A DNA stretch of 64,000 nucleotides from Mycolicibacterium baixiangningiae (GTDB lineage Bacteria > Actinomycetota > Actinomycetes > Mycobacteriales > Mycobacteriaceae), in contig NZ_CP066218.1 in assembly GCF_016313185.1 (NCBI RefSeq), forward strand, positions 2,976,001-3,040,000, written 5' to 3'. The position numbers and the translations under genes were made by a program. The notes beneath the pieces were generated by a model that worked only from the letters and a program-made list of their open reading frames with translations, searched no databases and was not told where the DNA came from. Below are positions 40,122 to 48,062 of the stretch, piece after piece. Positions within the stretch are counted from its first letter, which is position 1, and each line of letters begins with the position of its first letter.

Positions 40122-40127
40122 GCAGTG

Positions 40128-40562
40128 GTGACCGACTCGTCCGATGACCCATTCGACCTGCAACGCTTCGTCGACGCCCAGGAACCGGTTTACGACACCG
40201 TGATCGGAGAGCTGCGCGCCGGACGTAAACGCTCGCACTGGATCTGGTTCGTCTTCCCGCAGCTGCGCGGCCTCGGCCGCAGTGCCACCGCACAGCACTA
40301 CGGCATCGCCTCCCGCGAGGAAGCCGTCGCCTATCTGGCGCACGACCTGCTCGGACCGCGCCTTCGGGAGTGCACCCGTCTGGTGCTCGCCATCGAGGGC
40401 CGATCCATCGGTGAGGTGTTCGGCTCGCCCGACGATCTCAAGGTGCGCTCGTCGATGACGCTCTTCGCCCGCTGTACGGGCGACAACGCCGATTTCCTCG
40501 GTGTTCTCGACAAGTTCTACGGCGGTGCGGAGGATCCGGCGACCGTCGAGCGGCTGACCTGA
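40128..40562 (+). CDS. DUF1810 family protein (Rv1873-type)
   Basis: A 144-145-residue helical cytosolic protein of the DUF1810 family. FDLQRFVDAQEPVYDTVIGE, GRKRSHWIWFVFPQLRGLG, AYLAHDLLGPRLRECTRLVL and SSMTLFARCTGDNADFLGVL are the conserved blocks. It corresponds to M. tuberculosis Rv1873, a protein of known fold but unknown function. Two adjacent GTG codons (40125, 40128) may start it; 40128 fits a leaderless transcript. It ends 4 bp before the convergent fusion gene. Confidence 0.88.
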   Translation: MTDSSDDPFDLQRFVDAQEPVYDTVIGELRAGRKRSHWIWFVFPQLRGLGRSATAQHYGIASREEAVAYLAHDLLGPRLRECTRLVLAIEGRSIGEVFGSPDDLKVRSSMTLFARCTGDNADFLGVLDKFYGGAEDPATVERLT

Positions 40563-40566
40563 CGGC

Positions 40567-42405
40567 TCAGCTGGGTGCGATGACCACCCAGCCGTTAGGC
40601 GGCACGGTCACCTGGTCGCGTTCCTCGGGTGGGGGCGCCCCGGAGCCGGAGATCACCCGCCCGCGGGCCCGGCCGGCGTCCCGCAGGGCCAGCTTCAAGG
40701 GTTCCTCGGCGTCGATGTTGAGCGCGACGATCAGCGCATCGTCGCCGTTGCGGGTCTCGTAGACGTAGTGGCGGTTGTCGAGCGTCACCGGGGAGGTCAC
40801 CGCGCGGTGCAGCCACGGGTGTCTGCGGCGGAGCCCGATCAGGTGCTGGTGCAGACGGAACACGTCGTTATCCACCTCGTCGGGCGCGCTGAACTCCGGC
40901 CGCACGGCGTCGTCGCCACCCGCGCGGTCCTCCTTGACGCCTCGCAGTCCGAGTTCGTCACCGGCGTACACGCTCGGCACGCCGCCGAGGGTGAACAGCA
41001 GCACCAGTGCGTGTCCGACGTGGCGGGGGTCGGTCATCCGGCTGGCGATGCGGGTGACGTCGTGGTTGCCGACGAACGTCAGCGGGGCGAACTGCTCGAC
41101 GAAGGCGTTGTGGCGCTTCAACGCCCAGTCGAGTTCGTGGAAGTTGCCGTCGTTGAGGCTGCTCCACACCGCCTTCCACAGTTCGTACTGGGTCACCGAA
41201 TCGAATCCGGCGCTCACCCACTGCGCGTAGTCGCCGTGGATGACCTCGCCGACGAACCACGCATCCGGATGCGCCTGCCGTACGCGGGGAAGCACCTCGG
41301 ACCAGAACCGCTCGGGCACCGCGTAGGCGGCGTCGAGTCGCCAGCCGTCGGCCCCGCGGGCCAGCCAGTGCGACATCACCTCGACCGTGTAGTCGGCGAC
41401 GGCGGGGTTGCGGTGGTCGAGGGCGATCAGGTCGCCGTGACCCTCGAAGTTGCCGAACCCTTTGCGGCCCCGCCGAAACCACGCCGACGCAGGGCTGTCA
41501 GGGCCGCCGTCGAGCGCCTCGCGGTAGCGCGGGAAGTCGGTGCCGACGTGGTTGAAGACGCCGTCGAGCAGAACACGCAATCCGCGTCGGTGCGCCTCGC
41601 CGACCAGCAGGTCGAAATCGGCGTCGTCGCCGAGGCGCGGGTCGATGTGGAAGTGGTCGGTGGTGTCGTACCCGTGGGTGCGCGAGGCGAAGATCGGGCC
41701 GAGCGCGATACCGGAGGCGCCGAGGGTGATGGCGTGGTCGAGCCAGTCGACGATGCGGCGCAACCGGTGCTCGCCGGGAGTCGGTGCGGGGTCGGCGGGG
41801 AAGGCGCCGACGAATCCGAGCGGATAGAGGTGCCACCAGATCGCATGCGAGACCCACTCCGGCGGAGATCCGGGTGCCGGCGCGTCCTCGCGTGGAGGCT
41901 CCGCGTCCTCGCGTGGAGGCTCCGCGTCCGGCTGGAACTTCGCGGCGTAGAGCGCTTTCATGGTGTCGGTGAACTCGGGGACCGGCCCGTCGACCGGTAC
42001 ACCGGGTGCGACGTCGCCGATCGGCAGGGGAGTCACCGGCGGCGCGGGCGCTCCCCACTCGGCCAGCCACCCGCTCAGCTGTGCGGACGAGGCGGCGTAG
42101 ACGATGCGGCCCAGGCCCACCCAGGCGTGCGCGGCGGCGCACATCGGACAGTGTTCGCCGGAGGTGTAAACCGTTGCGGCGGCGCGGTCGGCGGTGCTCA
42201 GGTTCTCCACCGCCCACTTGGCGATGGCGAACTCGGGGTGGCGGGTGTGGTCCCCGCCGCTGACCCGGTTGTGGTCGGCGAAGCGGACCTGCCCGGCGCC
42301 GTCGACGAGGACCGATCCGAACGGTTCGTCACCGGTGTCGAGCGCCTGCCCGGCGAGTTCCACGCAGCGGTGGAGGTGTTCGCGGTCCGAGTCACTGAGC
42401 GCCAC
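40567..42405 (-). CDS. Nucleoside/guanine deaminase fused to a GH13 alpha-amylase domain
   Basis: A single 612-residue frame joins two complete enzymes. Residues of about 1-160 are a cytidine-deaminase-fold nucleobase deaminase with zinc site H56 (with E58, in TRHPEFAIAKWA) and C86/C89 (SGEHCPMCAAAH). Residues of about 183-612 are a GH13 barrel with all four conserved regions: D281-N285-H286 (LLDGVFNHVG), R356 and nucleophile D358 (GWRLDAAYAV), acid/base E387 (WFVGEVIHGDYAQW) and N447-H448-D449 (FVGNHDVTRI). A short linker carries a 7-residue repeat (AEPPRED twice) from a 21-bp tandem DNA repeat. No internal stop or ribosome site was found at the junction. It lies 31 bp after the TPR gene. 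Confidence 0.88.
   Translation of the reverse strand: MALSDSDREHLHRCVELAGQALDTGDEPFGSVLVDGAGQVRFADHNRVSGGDHTRHPEFAIAKWAVENLSTADRAAATVYTSGEHCPMCAAAHAWVGLGRIVYAASSAQLSGWLAEWGAPAPPVTPLPIGDVAPGVPVDGPVPEFTDTMKALYAAKFQPDAEPPREDAEPPREDAPAPGSPPEWVSHAIWWHLYPLGFVGAFPADPAPTPGEHRLRRIVDWLDHAITLGASGIALGPIFASRTHGYDTTDHFHIDPRLGDDADFDLLVGEAHRRGLRVLLDGVFNHVGTDFPRYREALDGGPDSPASAWFRRGRKGFGNFEGHGDLIALDHRNPAVADYTVEVMSHWLARGADGWRLDAAYAVPERFWSEVLPRVRQAHPDAWFVGEVIHGDYAQWVSAGFDSVTQYELWKAVWSSLNDGNFHELDWALKRHNAFVEQFAPLTFVGNHDVTRIASRMTDPRHVGHALVLLFTLGGVPSVYAGDELGLRGVKEDRAGGDDAVRPEFSAPDEVDNDVFRLHQHLIGLRRRHPWLHRAVTSPVTLDNRHYVYETRNGDDALIVALNIDAEEPLKLALRDAGRARGRVISGSGAPPPEERDQVTVPPNGWVVIAPS
41881..41922. repeat. 21-bp tandem repeat in the fusion linker
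   Basis: Two identical 21-bp units (41881-41901 and 41902-41922) followed by a partial third encode the minus-strand AEPPRED heptad repeat. They lie exactly between the deaminase and amylase domains. Confidence 0.9.
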
Positions 42406-42436: not shown

Positions 42437-44146
42437 TCAGGAGGGGCAGCAGCCGTCGGCGATGTCGAGCCGGCACGCGCAGGAGGCGTTGATCGGCACG
42501 TCAGCGCGAGCCGCGGCCAGGCTGAGTTGCTGGCCGATGATGGCGGCCTCCGCGGTGCGGCCCAGCCGCTGCAGGCATTCGTGGTAGCCGTGCAGGCTCC
42601 ACACGTTGCCCGGGTGCTGCGAGGACCGGCTCAGTTCGGGGTCGAGGCCGAGGTCGGCGGCGTACACGGCGGCCGCTTCCTCGACGCGGCCCTGGTCGAG
42701 CAGCAGCGCCCCGTACGCGTGGCGGGTGGGCTGCATCCAGCCCCAGGGTTCGTCGTAGGGCAACGAGTCGTCCAACTCGATCGCACGCCGCAGATGGTTG
42801 AAGGCCTCATCGAATCTTCCTGCCCGGTAATCGATCTCACCGTCGAGCATGGCCTCGGCGACGGCCAGGATGTCGCGGCTGGTGTTGTTGAACAGGTAGC
42901 GGGACTCCGGGATGCGGGCATACGCGGCGGCGAAGGCCTCGCGCTCCGCACGGGCCTGGTCGAGGTGACCTTTCGCGGCGTGGGCGACGCCGCGCCCGTA
43001 GTGGACGGTCGCGGTGGTGGTGCAGTAGAGCGCCTGATCGTCCGGCAGCGGTTCGGCGATCAGCTCGTCCCAGCGGCCGAACCGGATGAGCACGTGCACC
43101 CGCAGCGGGACGAACGCCTCGAGCCAGTCGGCCATCGGCGGGGATTCGATCGCGAGCAGTTCGGGTGTGAGCTGGCCGGCGAGTTCGTCGGCCGCTTGCA
43201 GCGCGATCCGCGACGAACCCTCGAACATCGCCGAGTACACCACGAAGTGCAGATCATGGGCGCGGTAGAGGGAGTAGAAGTTCAGTGGGCCGGCACGGTC
43301 GACGAACTGCCGATCCGCCTCCACGGCAGCGAGATTGGCCGTCACGGAGGACCGGTACTGCCCGCACAGCACGTCGATGTGGCTCGGCATGTGCTGCAGG
43401 TGGCCGGCGTCGGGCACCAGCCCGCGCAACAGGTCGGCGGCGGGGAGCGCGTGTTCGGGGGTCGTTGACATCTCCATGGTGTGCAGGTAGAGGTGCAGCA
43501 CGCCGGGGTGCTCCTGCCCCGCGGACGTGGTGAGCGCGGCGTCGAGGATCGCCTTGGCCGCCACCACCCGCGATCCGGGCGCCGGTTCGCCCGTCCGGGT
43601 GTCCCACAGCGCCCACGCGGTGATGTTGACCAGTGCGTCGGCCGCCAGGGCCTGCACGTCGACATCGTCGGGGTAGGCGGCCGCCAACTCGACCATCGCG
43701 TCGGCGTACGCCGGGTGCCCGTCGTGCAGCGCCTCGGTCTGTCCGGGGTCCTCGACGGGAAACCGGCGCTGCAACGCCTCGATCAGGCCGCGTTCGACGG
43801 CTGATGCGCGGCCGCCGGCAGCGAGCTGCAACTCCATCCGTGCCCGCGCCAGCGACGCCCCGAGATCCACCGGATCGAAGGCCTCCCACGGTTTGTTGTA
43901 GTTGGGTCCGACGGCGTACGCGATACCCCACCGCGCGATAGCCAAATCCCGGTCGAGTTCCAGCGCGCGCTCGAAGCAGCGGACGGCTTCTTCGTGGTTG
44001 AAGGCGTACGCCCAGACCATGCCGCGGTCGAACCACAGCTGCGCTTGCGGTGACGGCGTCTCGACCGGGCGGTGGTACGAGCCGAGGTCGTAGTACGCGC
44101 CGCCGTCGTAGTGGGGCCCCGCGTCACGGCCCAGGGAAATCGTCAT
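42437..44146 (-). CDS. TPR-repeat protein with a Cys-rich C-terminus
   Basis: A 569-residue soluble tetratricopeptide-type protein. AQLWFDRGMVWAYAFNHEEA, VRCFERALELDRDLAIARWG, LHLYLHTMEMSTTPEHALPA and HLQHMPSHIDVLCGQYRSSV are typical of a widespread but poorly studied bacterial TPR family. The protein ends with NASCACRLDIADGCCPS, five Cys within 17 residues, unusual for this family and suggestive of metal or disulfide chemistry. ATG 44146 follows GGAG with good spacing; a TTG at 44209 would add an unlikely extension. It precedes the deaminase-amylase fusion by 31 bp. Confidence 0.82.
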   Translation of the reverse strand: MTISLGRDAGPHYDGGAYYDLGSYHRPVETPSPQAQLWFDRGMVWAYAFNHEEAVRCFERALELDRDLAIARWGIAYAVGPNYNKPWEAFDPVDLGASLARARMELQLAAGGRASAVERGLIEALQRRFPVEDPGQTEALHDGHPAYADAMVELAAAYPDDVDVQALAADALVNITAWALWDTRTGEPAPGSRVVAAKAILDAALTTSAGQEHPGVLHLYLHTMEMSTTPEHALPAADLLRGLVPDAGHLQHMPSHIDVLCGQYRSSVTANLAAVEADRQFVDRAGPLNFYSLYRAHDLHFVVYSAMFEGSSRIALQAADELAGQLTPELLAIESPPMADWLEAFVPLRVHVLIRFGRWDELIAEPLPDDQALYCTTTATVHYGRGVAHAAKGHLDQARAEREAFAAAYARIPESRYLFNNTSRDILAVAEAMLDGEIDYRAGRFDEAFNHLRRAIELDDSLPYDEPWGWMQPTRHAYGALLLDQGRVEEAAAVYAADLGLDPELSRSSQHPGNVWSLHGYHECLQRLGRTAEAAIIGQQLSLAAARADVPINASCACRLDIADGCCPS

Positions 44147-44292
44147 GCCGTCTCCAGCCCGTCGCACGTCACCGTCTGAGTGTGACGGCTCTCCAGGGGA
44201 GAACGTCAAGACGGGGCTCGAGTTTCATCCGACACGAATCACGAGAGGTCGTCGATCAGCTGACGCGGCGGTGGTGTGAACCACACCGCGAT

Positions 44293-44361: not shown

Positions 44362-45954
44362 TCAGTGGCCGGCCACGACGTCGCTTTCGTCGATCACCGT
44401 CGGCTCGTTGGCGCCCGGCAGGAAAGCGCAGGCGGCGCAGACGATTCCGAAGAACACGTAGCCGAGTGCCACCTGGGGGCTGGCCGCCCACGCGACCTGC
44501 GGCGCATGGATGAGCCCGATGAACGACAGCACAGCGCCGACCGCCGAGGCGATCGCGGCGTAGCTGAACTTCTTCTCCAGGATGAAGGTCACCATCGCGC
44601 CGAGGATCAATCCGACCAGCACCGCACCTTCACCGAGGGTCTTGAGGCCCTCGTACACCACGCCCGCGCCGTTCAGCGCCTCCATCCCGACCTCGGCCGC
44701 CGAGGTCCCGGCCGCGTTGAGCGCGTTGTCGATCAGGCCGTGTGCCCACTGCGCGAGGTTGGGCAGCAGCGCGGCCACCACGGCGACCGCATGCAGTCGC
44801 GGCACCGCCTGGAACGCCTGGGCGCCGATCAGCAGACCGATGTAGAGCAGGATCGGAACGATGGCGGGCACCGGCAGCAGCGCGTCGAGCACTCCGAAAA
44901 GCCCTATGAAACAAAGGATTCCGATCACCACGCCGCCGGCCAGTGAATACCCGGCCCGCCCGCCCGCGTCCTTCCAGCCGGGGTGGCCGATGTACACCGC
45001 GGGCGGGAACGGCGACCCGAATGCGGAGCCGATCACCGCACCGGCGCCATCGGCCAGCAGCACGCTGCGCAGGTTGAAGTTGTCTCCGGCGGCGGCCGCG
45101 CTCTCGACGTTGCTCATCGCCTCGGTGAAGTTGTAGACGCCCAGCGGGATGGCCGTGCCGAGCAGCGGCGCGAGATCGGCGAGGCCGGCCCACAGCAGGT
45201 CGAGCCGCAGGTCAGGGATGCCGATCGCGATGTCGGAGACCGCCTGGCCGACGTCGGGAGCCGACATGTATCCACCGGCCCAACCGATGGCGGTGCCGAC
45301 GAGCAGCGCCACCAGGCCGATCGGGATGTTGCCCGGCACCTTCACGTCGGTGAAGAAGCCGATGAGGATGATGGCGAGCACCGGCAGCCCGATCCACGCC
45401 GCCTCCCACATCTGTGCGGCCGGTCGCATCGAGATGAAGGTGATCGAGATACCCGCCAACGTGCCGAGCATGGCCGCCCGCGGTGTCAGCTTGCGGATGT
45501 GGGGCCCGACGAACGCGCCGATCATCACGATGACGCCGATCAGGAACGCCCACGCCAGTCCGGCCTGCCATGCCTGGATCGGGTCCTCGGTGTTGAGGTA
45601 CACCGGCAGCATGACGACGAACACCACGATGAACATGTGCGGGACGCTGGGACCGTAGGGCAGCGCGGTCACATCGTCGCGGTTCTCACGGCGCGCGAGC
45701 CGGCGCGCCAGGAACGTGTAGTAAAGGTTCCCCAGGATCAACGCGACGCCGAGCGCGGGCAACACGGTGCCCAGCACGTCACCGGCAGGCACTGAGATCA
45801 CGCCGATCATCAGGCCGGTCAGGGTGAGCACGTTGACCAGGATGTTGAACCCGAGACCGAAGAAGGCGTTGAGGTCGCCGCGGGTCCACCACGGGACGGA
45901 GAGCGGTTCGGCCGGCGCGGGTTGGGCGGGCGGGTCGGTCACGTCTGCGCTCAT
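44362..45954 (-). CDS. NCS2/uracil-xanthine-type permease family protein
   Basis: A 530-residue polytopic membrane protein with about twelve to fourteen hydrophobic segments. FFGLGFNILVNVLTLTGLMI, DVTALPYGPSVPHMFIVVF, IPLGVYNFTEAMSNVESAAA and GSPFPPAVYIGHPGWKDAGG resemble the AzgA/NCS2 purine-pyrimidine permease superfamily. It starts 10 bp after the biuret-hydrolase stop and is the last gene of that operon. The substrate could be biuret, urea-derived or a nucleobase; context favours a nitrogenous ring or biuret. Confidence 0.85.
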   Translation of the reverse strand: MSADVTDPPAQPAPAEPLSVPWWTRGDLNAFFGLGFNILVNVLTLTGLMIGVISVPAGDVLGTVLPALGVALILGNLYYTFLARRLARRENRDDVTALPYGPSVPHMFIVVFVVMLPVYLNTEDPIQAWQAGLAWAFLIGVIVMIGAFVGPHIRKLTPRAAMLGTLAGISITFISMRPAAQMWEAAWIGLPVLAIILIGFFTDVKVPGNIPIGLVALLVGTAIGWAGGYMSAPDVGQAVSDIAIGIPDLRLDLLWAGLADLAPLLGTAIPLGVYNFTEAMSNVESAAAAGDNFNLRSVLLADGAGAVIGSAFGSPFPPAVYIGHPGWKDAGGRAGYSLAGGVVIGILCFIGLFGVLDALLPVPAIVPILLYIGLLIGAQAFQAVPRLHAVAVVAALLPNLAQWAHGLIDNALNAAGTSAAEVGMEALNGAGVVYEGLKTLGEGAVLVGLILGAMVTFILEKKFSYAAIASAVGAVLSFIGLIHAPQVAWAASPQVALGYVFFGIVCAACAFLPGANEPTVIDESDVVAGH

Positions 45955-45964
45955 CTCAGGCTCC

Positions 45965-46657
45965 TCACACGGCGGTGGTGGTCAGGGCGTGCAGCGCCGG
46001 GATGACGGCAGCAGTGTCGGCGACCCAGCCGAAAATGCCGCCTTGCGCCTTGATCATCTCCAGCCCGATGCGCTGGAACTCGGGGAAATACGAACCGACA
46101 CAATCGGATACGACCAGGCACTCGTAGCCACGGTCGTTGGCCTCGCGGGTGGTGGTGTGGACGCACACCTCGGTGGTGACGCCGGTGACGAGAAGCTGGG
46201 TGATCCCCGCCGCGTCCAGGATGTCCTGCAGGCCGGTGGCGTAGAACGCTCCCTTGCCGGGTTTGTCGATGACGACTTCGCCTGGGATGGGGGCGAGTTC
46301 GTCGACGATGTCGTGGCCGTACTCGCCGCGGATGAGGATGCGCCCGTAACGGCCGGGATCGCCGATGCGTTTCTCCGGGGCGCCGCGGTGGAGTTTGGCC
46401 GGCGGGCAGTCCGACAGGTCAGGCCGGTGGCCTTCACGGGTGTGGATCACCATCACCCCGGCCGCCCGCGCGGCGGCGATCAGGGCGGCCAGCGGCGGCA
46501 CCACCTCGAGCAGCAGGCCGACGTCGTTGCCGAGGCTCTCCCCGAATCCGCCGGGCAGCAGGAAGTCTCGCTGCATGTCGATGACGATGAGCGCCGTCCT
46601 GCCCGCCGTCAGCGGGAAGGGCGTCGGTTCGGCCGGGATGTCGACGGTCTGGCTCAC
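45965..46657 (-). CDS. Biuret hydrolase-like isochorismatase-family amidohydrolase
   Basis: A 230-residue cysteine hydrolase. The catalytic triad is visible: Asp in [16 protein letters not shown], Lys in [15 protein letters not shown], and Cys in [32 protein letters not shown] and [17 protein letters not shown] match, from memory, the biuret hydrolase BiuH of Rhizobium. It would turn biuret into allophanate and ammonia. The allophanate hydrolase gene ends 10 bp upstream, which strengthens the assignment. Translation starts at GTG 46657. Confidence 0.87.
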
Positions 46658-46667
46658 GCGCGCGCTC

Positions 46668-48062
46668 CTAGCTGGGTATCGGGATCGGAGACGGGAGGGA
46701 CGGTGACTCCCGGAGTTCGTCGAGCAACTGCGCCGCGAGTTGCAGGACGGTGTCGTCGGTCAGGGCTGCGCCGAGCAGCATCGCGCTGGCGGGTCTGCCG
46801 TCGGCGGTCGTCCCCACCGGCACGGCGACCCCCAGCAGGTCGAGCAGGTTGCCGAAGTGGGTGTAGTGCCCCAGCACCGTGTTGGTCTCGATCGGGCGCT
46901 CGAGCACCTCGTCGACGGTGAACGTGGTGCCGATGGTCGGCACCACGAGTACGTCCATCCGCTGCCAGAGCCTGCCCACCACCGCCTTGAGTTCCTGTAG
47001 CGCCTGCAGTGCGGCGAATGCGTCGACAGCGCTGTAGCGGTGCCCGCCCCGCAGGATGTCACGTACCACCGGGTGAATCGAATCCGGTTGCGCCGCCAGG
47101 AAATCGGCGAACTCGACCAGTCGTTCGGCGACCCATGGGCCCTGATAGAGGAGCTCGCCGGCGGCCAGGAACGGCTCGAGCGAGACGTCGACCACGGTGT
47201 GCTGCCGAGCGACGTGCTCGCGGAAGGCGAGGTGGGCGTCGCACATCTCGGCGTCGCCGAAGAACTCGAGCTGCTCGACGGGCGGCAACCCCACCCGGAT
47301 GCCGGTGCCGTCGTGGCGTGGGCCGCGGTCACGCGACCACGGATCACCGTCGTCGCGGGCGATCATCACGTCGAGCACGCGGTGGACGTCGTCGATGCAC
47401 CCCGCCATCACGCTGAGGCAGTCCAGCGACTTGCACGCCGGAACCAGCCCCACCGTGCTGATCAGCCCGCGCGACGGTTTGCACCCGATGACCCCGTTCA
47501 GCGCGGCGGGCACCCGACCGGACCCGGCCGTGTCGGTCGCGACGGCGAACGGCACCTGCCCGAGCGCGACTGCCAGCGCCGACCCCGAACTCGATCCGCC
47601 GGAGATCAGCCCGCCGCCGTAGACGCTGCGCGGCACGGTGTAGGGGGTGCGGGTGCCGTTGAGCCCGGTGGCGAACTGGTCGAGGTTGGTCTTGCCGACG
47701 TACAGCGCACCGGCGTCGAGCAGTCGGCGGACCGCCGGCGCGGTCGAGGACGCGAGGTAGGCGTAGTCCGGGCAGGACAGCGTGGTGGGCACACCCTCGA
47801 CGTCGATGCTGTCCTTGACTCCGAACGGCACGCCGTAGAGCGGCAGCGTGCGGGCGTCGGGCCGTCGTTCGATGTCGGCGGCGGCCGCGAGCAGCTCGTC
47901 GCGCGGCACCGTCGACAGCCAGGTCCCGTCGTCGCCGCGGGCCGCGATCGCGTCGGCGACCCGCGCGGCGGTCTTGGTCGGGGAGCCGGTGCCACCGGCG
48001 TGGGACGCCAGGATCTCGGCAACCGACGGTCCGATCGAGGGGCCGCTCGTCTCACCAGGCAT
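46668..48062 (-). CDS. Allophanate hydrolase (AtzF-type amidase, no C-terminal domain)
   Basis: A 464-residue amidase-signature enzyme. The Ser-cisSer-Lys triad is in [35 protein letters not shown] and [20 protein letters not shown]. The closely conserved [20 protein letters not shown] and TYPE-like YSVYGGG context point to the allophanate-hydrolase branch that cleaves allophanate to ammonia and CO2. AtzF and DUR1,2 enzymes usually carry a further C-terminal domain of about 130 residues; this protein ends after the amidase fold ([12 protein letters not shown]). It is the first gene of the operon with BiuH and the permease. Confidence 0.86.

Follow-up and report, generated by a model that had tools for sequence, protein, structure and literature searches.

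The window, a stretch of 64,000 nucleotides from Mycolicibacterium baixiangningiae, carries a gene that very probably arose when two adjacent mycobacterial genes, one for an Msd-like deaminase and one for a glycoside hydrolase family 13 (GH13) enzyme, merged in this lineage. On the evidence at hand the fusion is real and came about by an ordinary route. It is probably lineage-specific and derived from a translationally coupled pair, and its product is predicted to be bifunctional. Judged by sequence comparison, it is a putative neighbour-gene fusion, the partners being separate and adjacent in relatives and in one frame here.

One frame with two enzyme domains

The frame (40567..42405, minus strand) starts at GTG, encodes 612 aa and has no internal stop, as seen from the open reading frame list and the translation. 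The earlier note's reading of one frame joining a deaminase to a GH13 enzyme was borne out by this uninterrupted frame and by the recovery of both Pfam domains: PF00383 matches residues 6–104 (38.1 bits, above its curated cut-off) and PF00128 matches residues 216–502 (144.5 bits, cut-off 22), followed by DUF3459 at residues 518–607 (27.6 bits, cut-off 22). All zinc-site and catalytic residues named in that note are present, and the short linker with a 21-bp tandem repeat lies at the junction as described (Table 1). The GH13 half also has D281, R356 and H448, and seven checked residues of the catalytic region, D358, E387 and D449 among them, are invariant in 48/48 rows of our alignment A3 (three fused proteins included). 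Both domains are orthologues of genes that adjoin each other in 72 other genus genomes, and chance is therefore excluded as an origin of the fusion.

Table 1 Features of the fusion gene and its immediate neighbours (window positions).
Feature	Position	Strand	Description
TPR-repeat gene	42437..44209	-	31 nt upstream of the fusion; position shared with many relatives
Deaminase domain	41935..42405	-	residues 1–157; zinc site H56, E58, C86, C89; includes C-terminal tail ...TMKALYAAKF
Linker	41857..41934	-	residues 158–183 (26 residues, Pro/acidic), QPDAEPPREDAEPPREDAPAPGSPPE; stands where relatives have the stop/start junction
21-bp tandem repeat	41881..41929	-	2.3 copies, 100% match; unit encodes DAEPPRE
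GH13 part	40567..41856	-	residues 184–612 plus stop; without its own start codon near the N-terminus
GH13 catalytic domain PF00128	40900..41760	-	residues 216–502; D358, E387, D449
DUF3459 C-terminal domain	40585..40854	-	residues 518–607
DUF1810 gene	40125..40562	+	convergent, just past the fusion's stop; same place in many relatives

Residues 1–157 align over their full length to PDB entries 5xkq/5xko and 8wlv–8wlx, with E-values from 1e-70 (5xkq) to 9e-68. The zinc motif and the C-terminal tail are common to the fusion and to this group (5XKO/5XKP/5XKQ/5XKR and 8WLV–8WLX, 'CMP/dCMP deaminase, zinc-binding protein'); the solved chains are deaminases of 157–159 aa, whereas the fusion continues into GH13. 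We take the enzyme of 5XKO–5XKR and 8WLV–8WLX to be Msd of Mycobacterium smegmatis (Gaded and Anand 2017), which presumably acts on mutagenic bases. Nearer still to the fusion's deaminase than these entries is that of G077 (E 1.4e-92), a relative in the genus whose two genes are separate. With its H-x-E and C-x-x-C motifs and full-length homology that includes the tail, the first half is predicted to be an Msd-like zinc nucleobase deaminase. The excerpted text of PMC6186785 treats other deaminases and does no more than cite Gaded and Anand.

The second half has D, E and D in the conserved barrel regions and is assigned on these grounds to GH13, where it is nearest to maltogenic amylase, cyclomaltodextrinase and neopullulanase, both by sequence and by fold. 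Foldseek rows for 1j0h, 1sma, 1ea9, TVA II and 5zxg are 25–28% identical to it, and 1SMA, 1EA9, 1J0H and 5ZXG (cyclic maltosyl-maltose hydrolase) are the best matches in sequence and fold, their catalytic residues being present in the fusion. The first ~125 residues of 1SMA, 1EA9 and 1J0H, an N-domain ahead of the barrel that we take to be CBM34, are missing from the GH13 half, which aligns from its first residues to residue 129 of 1sma onward and is preceded by the deaminase instead. In this respect it resembles 5ZXG, a 471-aa hydrolase without the long N-domain that was matched from residue 25. The score against the cyclomaltodextrinase equivalog NF041090 is 169.6 bits (cut-off 540), and among the 25 of 35 NCBIfam matches listed none reached its cut-off, the scores falling far under those of the equivalogs; we therefore assign no substrate to the GH13 half, which by its sequence appears most like a maltogenic amylase or cyclomaltodextrinase.

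The structure was predicted from A3 (45 GH13 rows plus the three fused proteins), because deaminase-only rows were misplaced in both A1 (row-by-row check) and A2 (30–33% identity). The model has a mean pLDDT of 75.2 and a pTM of 0.70; residues 118–172, including the first half of the linker, fall under pLDDT 50, and the deaminase half is low owing to shallow alignment depth, so the Foldseek result speaks for the GH13 half only.

The two-gene state in relatives and the junction

The whole protein and, separately, the deaminase (E <= 1e-40) served as queries against 148 genus genomes, and the places listed were joined. A GH13 orthologue was found in 122/148 (counting a partial copy in G025 and a copy with eight stops in G115) and a deaminase in 82/148; 73 genomes hold both genes and 17 hold neither at these thresholds. 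Wherever both occur they are adjacent on one strand (73/73; in G000 one match spans both), and they are out of phase in 72 of the 73, the window's genome being the only one in which they are in phase. Solely the window's genome has an open frame of sufficient length (687 aa); the next longest over the deaminase is 505. When the whole protein was searched against 396 genus genomes, 18 matched at E <= 1e-214, and solely here do residues 2–612 lie in one frame.

The 66 distinct loci with both genes include one fused locus. Close relatives with two genes and an intervening stop, which the earlier note had named as evidence against its reading, are what we found: the deaminase ends with TGA in 65/65 other loci, with GH13 in a different phase, matching the out-of-phase arrangement of the 72 genomes. 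The overlap between deaminase stop and GH13 start measures 4 bp in 50 of these loci, 8 bp in another 12 and 1 bp in L086; the two remaining loci have tandem repeats after the stop, with the GH13 start following 93 nt (L029) and 189 nt (L061) downstream. A stop/start overlap is thereby found in 63/65 other loci; it is absent at the window's junction. All eight of the nearest relatives that we read (L112–L115 and L002–L005; GH13 77.6–80.9% identical) have TGA/ATG or TGA/GTG overlaps, and at the locus of a ninth near relative, L006, there is no deaminase. The overlap in relatives suggests translational coupling, a subject of which PMC3711429, in the part drawn on here, gives a general treatment.

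Outside the genus, 301 family genomes were searched at E <= 1e-60. GH13 relatives at 50–61% identity and deaminases occur in other genera, and in all 11 of the listed other-genus genomes that hold both, the genes are not neighbours: eight genomes have them on separate contigs, and in three the distance is at least 950 kb. At 20/20 deaminase-only loci, titled as other taxa, no GH13 match was present in the flanks (up to 4 kb). Because relatives have the two-gene form, the fusion is a local one. That it is instead an old bifunctional enzyme since split in other species is barely conceivable: the adjacency of the genes in every sampled genus genome with both would suit such an origin, but it is opposed by the out-of-phase form at all 65 other distinct loci and by the unlinked genes in the 11 other-genus genomes.

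Two side observations concern the distribution of GH13. First, 26 of the 148 sampled genus genomes are without a listed GH13 orthologue. Second, the GH13 relative in a 3.3-Mb genus genome (G115:C1:2434245-2435270) is wrecked, with eight stops at 51% identity.

At the junction, the spacing from deaminase codon 157 to GH13 codon 184 is most commonly 20 nt (31/66 loci) and here 78 nt, a net gain of 58 nt, which is 1 mod 3 and so the phase shift required. The coding frame is free of stops over codons 141–200; the two alternative frames have a single one, a TGA within ATG-A at codon 149. No in-frame ATG, GTG or TTG occurs from codon 151 to 214, the first being a TTG at codon 215. With both the TGA stop and the former GH13 start missing, and no start codon between codons 151 and 215, there is no obvious separate start for GH13. 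The earlier note had suggested that a stop codon was lost between neighbours; the origin from neighbouring genes stands, but more than the loss of a stop was involved, since the ancestral genes were in different phases.

Its further suggestion, that repeat expansion may have formed the fusion, does not hold. The repeat unit of 21 nt is a multiple of three, therefore phase-neutral, and cannot have created the fusion; the phase change came from the other 37 of the net 58 nt. What the repeat did was to lengthen the linker by 7 residues (DAEPPRE once more), and it could tune linker length. Allowing <= 3 mismatches, the 21-bp unit has only its two tandem copies genome-wide (the reversed control pattern gave 5 matches). 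An origin of the linker from the interspersed repeat described next was considered and rejected: codon-shuffled linkers reached its score of likeness to that repeat in 1077/2000 and 1336/2000 cases under two scoring schemes, and the genome has the 21-mer nowhere else.

This short tandem repeat, with a spacing of about 30–35 bp and the core ACCGACGAGCGCTCGCGCGAGGAG, is scattered in mycobacterial genomes and in some species occupies the deaminase/GH13 junction. The 24-mer repeat core (<= 3 mismatches) was scattered in 6/6 genus genomes searched, with 10 matches here, 32 in G037 and 4 to 13 in the others; its reversed control gave 0 in five genomes and 1 in G102. In G037 the core sits at the deaminase/GH13 junction itself (L029), and similar repeats occur in L057 and L061. 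At G000:C1:2531540-2531598 (L117) a ACCGACGAGCGCTCGCGCGAGGAG-core repeat is flanked by ATGA, and we take the habit of this repeat to be reminiscent of MIRU element insertion.

We propose that the starting state would be the arrangement of termination–reinitiation pairs, the second gene beginning within the first gene's stop region with an overlap of 4 or 8 bp. The net gain of 58 nt would have eliminated both the TGA stop and the start of GH13, aligned the two phases and left a Pro/acidic linker, which the phase-neutral 21-bp duplication would then have extended by 7 residues. The product would be one polypeptide of roughly 66 kDa (an estimate) with both domains active, in which a covalent 1:1 tether would take over from translational coupling; such a tether, with both activities kept, is the likeliest effect here. 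A shared pathway would not be required for such a fusion.

Other partners of the deaminase and the case for shared metabolism

A search with the deaminase region, covering proteins of 337–1071 aa, returned 101 proteins at E <= 1e-20, some of which may themselves be frame errors. By count of the Pfam column, 50/101 carry a rhomboid-like membrane domain, PF20401 (P0122–P0193 range), and 5/101 carry PF00128 (P0002, P0003, P0004, P0189 and P0213). The other partners include methyltransferase, SDR, glycerate kinase, luciferase-like and MGS domains; ten proteins were scanned for domain order. Among the best 120 of 7987 matches, only P0003 and P0004 cover the whole query besides the window's cluster. 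The deaminase tail is missing from P0003, P0004 and P0189, where its stretch is apparently translated out of frame; in P0213 the middle of the deaminase and much of GH13 are garbled. From their sequences these four look like frame errors or decay, and among the proteins examined only that of the window joins a complete deaminase to a complete GH13. Among the papers listed by our literature search there was no description of deaminase/alpha-amylase or rhomboid/deaminase fusions in mycobacteria, and on the evidence at hand the deaminase–GH13 architecture is new.

The condition of those four proteins, together with the uniqueness of the fusion among 396 sampled genomes, could point to a sequencing or assembly artefact that mimics a fusion. 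We judged this by stops, starts and spacing at the junction and consider it very unlikely: the tail of the deaminase is intact and stays in frame, stop and start are missing altogether instead of being displaced, and the linker measures 78 nt against the usual 20 nt. The genome is a single contig, 99.77% complete, and the fusion's protein cluster comprises 6 sequences on 2 contigs, possibly not from independent isolates.

The rhomboid-2–deaminase fusions of mycobacteria join the same deaminase family to another operon neighbour, with the partner N-terminal of the deaminase, whereas the window's GH13 is C-terminal. In 11/46 named loci with both the deaminase and the GH13 gene a rhomboid-like gene stands directly before the deaminase, with gaps of 10–12 nt in 9, an overlap in one and 52 nt to a partial deaminase match in one; a twelfth match is distant. 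The rhomboid-like and deaminase genes are unfused in 12/12 such loci (L032, L034, L035 and others). As a side observation, P0180 begins with a stretch resembling the TPR gene, crosses a garbled segment and ends up in the deaminase, and so is a further read-through frame from this neighbourhood.

Operon neighbours on both of its sides have become joined to this deaminase, which weakens fusion as an argument for shared chemistry. The earlier note had raised the possibility that nucleobase salvage is coupled to alpha-glucan or trehalose metabolism, for which we found no support: 49/122 genomes with GH13 have no deaminase (E <= 1e-40), and many deaminase partners are unrelated. The broader idea is that both enzymes serve one pathway, such as use of a nucleobase- or triazine-bearing glucoside or joint nitrogen and carbon salvage, and that selection locked the pair together by fusion. 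Adjacency in 73/73 sampled genus genomes with both is what it would lead one to expect, permease-like, biuret-amidohydrolase-like and allophanate-hydrolase-like genes lie upstream, and close or overlapping gene pairs are, according to the part of PMC10666635 consulted, enriched for subunits of heteromeric complexes. We nevertheless regard it as improbable, given that GH13 so often occurs without the deaminase and the deaminase without a listed GH13 orthologue in 9/82 genomes, that the genes are unlinked in the listed other genera and GH13 is missing from the deaminase-only loci, and that the deaminase is joined to rhomboid-like, methyltransferase, SDR, glycerate kinase and other partners as well.

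A known GH13 partnership is that of TreS with Mak/Pep2 (maltokinase): in actinobacteria, as far as the cited portion of PMC11046441 goes, GH13 is a distinct protein that joins its partner in a complex, and elsewhere the two are fused. TreS and Mak/Pep2 act sequentially, whereas for the deaminase and GH13 no common substrate is known.

Constraint, possible consequences and gene surroundings

The median dN/dS between the window's genome and 11 relatives is 0.235 for the deaminase and 0.222 for GH13 (the pairs share branches and are not independent). For 55 relative–relative pairs, likewise not independent, the medians are 0.200 (0.083–0.408) and 0.199 (0.081–0.344), so that the window's medians are slightly over those of the relatives and inside their range. 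Tajima-type relative-rate counts gave no significant excess of changes in the window's genome (largest chi2 1.80). Both domains therefore appear constrained about as strongly as their unfused relatives, which is consistent with two working domains and leaves the age of the fusion undated. A very young fusion with one damaged activity would also be compatible with these values, a point against our preferred reading of two merged neighbours with both activities kept.

Msd-family deaminases are dimeric, and if the fused one is like its family, each particle would carry two GH13 domains. Related GH13 enzymes dimerise through their N-domain. On this background the deaminase may drive dimerisation of the fusion and replace the missing N-domain. 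One could go further and imagine the deaminase as a portable dimerising platform fused to whichever operon neighbour profits, rhomboid-like on one side and GH13 on the other, giving a new way to a dimeric cyclomaltodextrinase-type enzyme that also deaminates; we think this unlikely. More directly, the gene shows cleanly how an overlapping pair becomes one gene: the changes to stop, start and phase go together, and constraint persists on both domains. It also counsels caution in reading shared metabolism from a fusion, given the many unrelated neighbours to which this deaminase is found joined.

The order permease-like ORF, TPR, deaminase, GH13, DUF1810, cache-domain gene, a further ORF and MscS-like gene is common to many relatives, though not to all. 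Of 13 named loci where GH13 was matched and the deaminase was not, 12 retain one or more of the downstream genes beside GH13; in the thirteenth, L077, the sequence ends at that point. Upstream of the fusion, a permease-like ORF (no Pfam match), an isochorismatase and an amidase stand in a row at 44362-48062 on the minus strand. The isochorismatase is biuret-amidohydrolase-like (267.5 bits, under the cut-off of 370) and the amidase allophanate-hydrolase-like (PRK08186 518.9 bits, cut-off 487; TIGR02713 487.1, under 511), and the row possibly serves nitrogen salvage.
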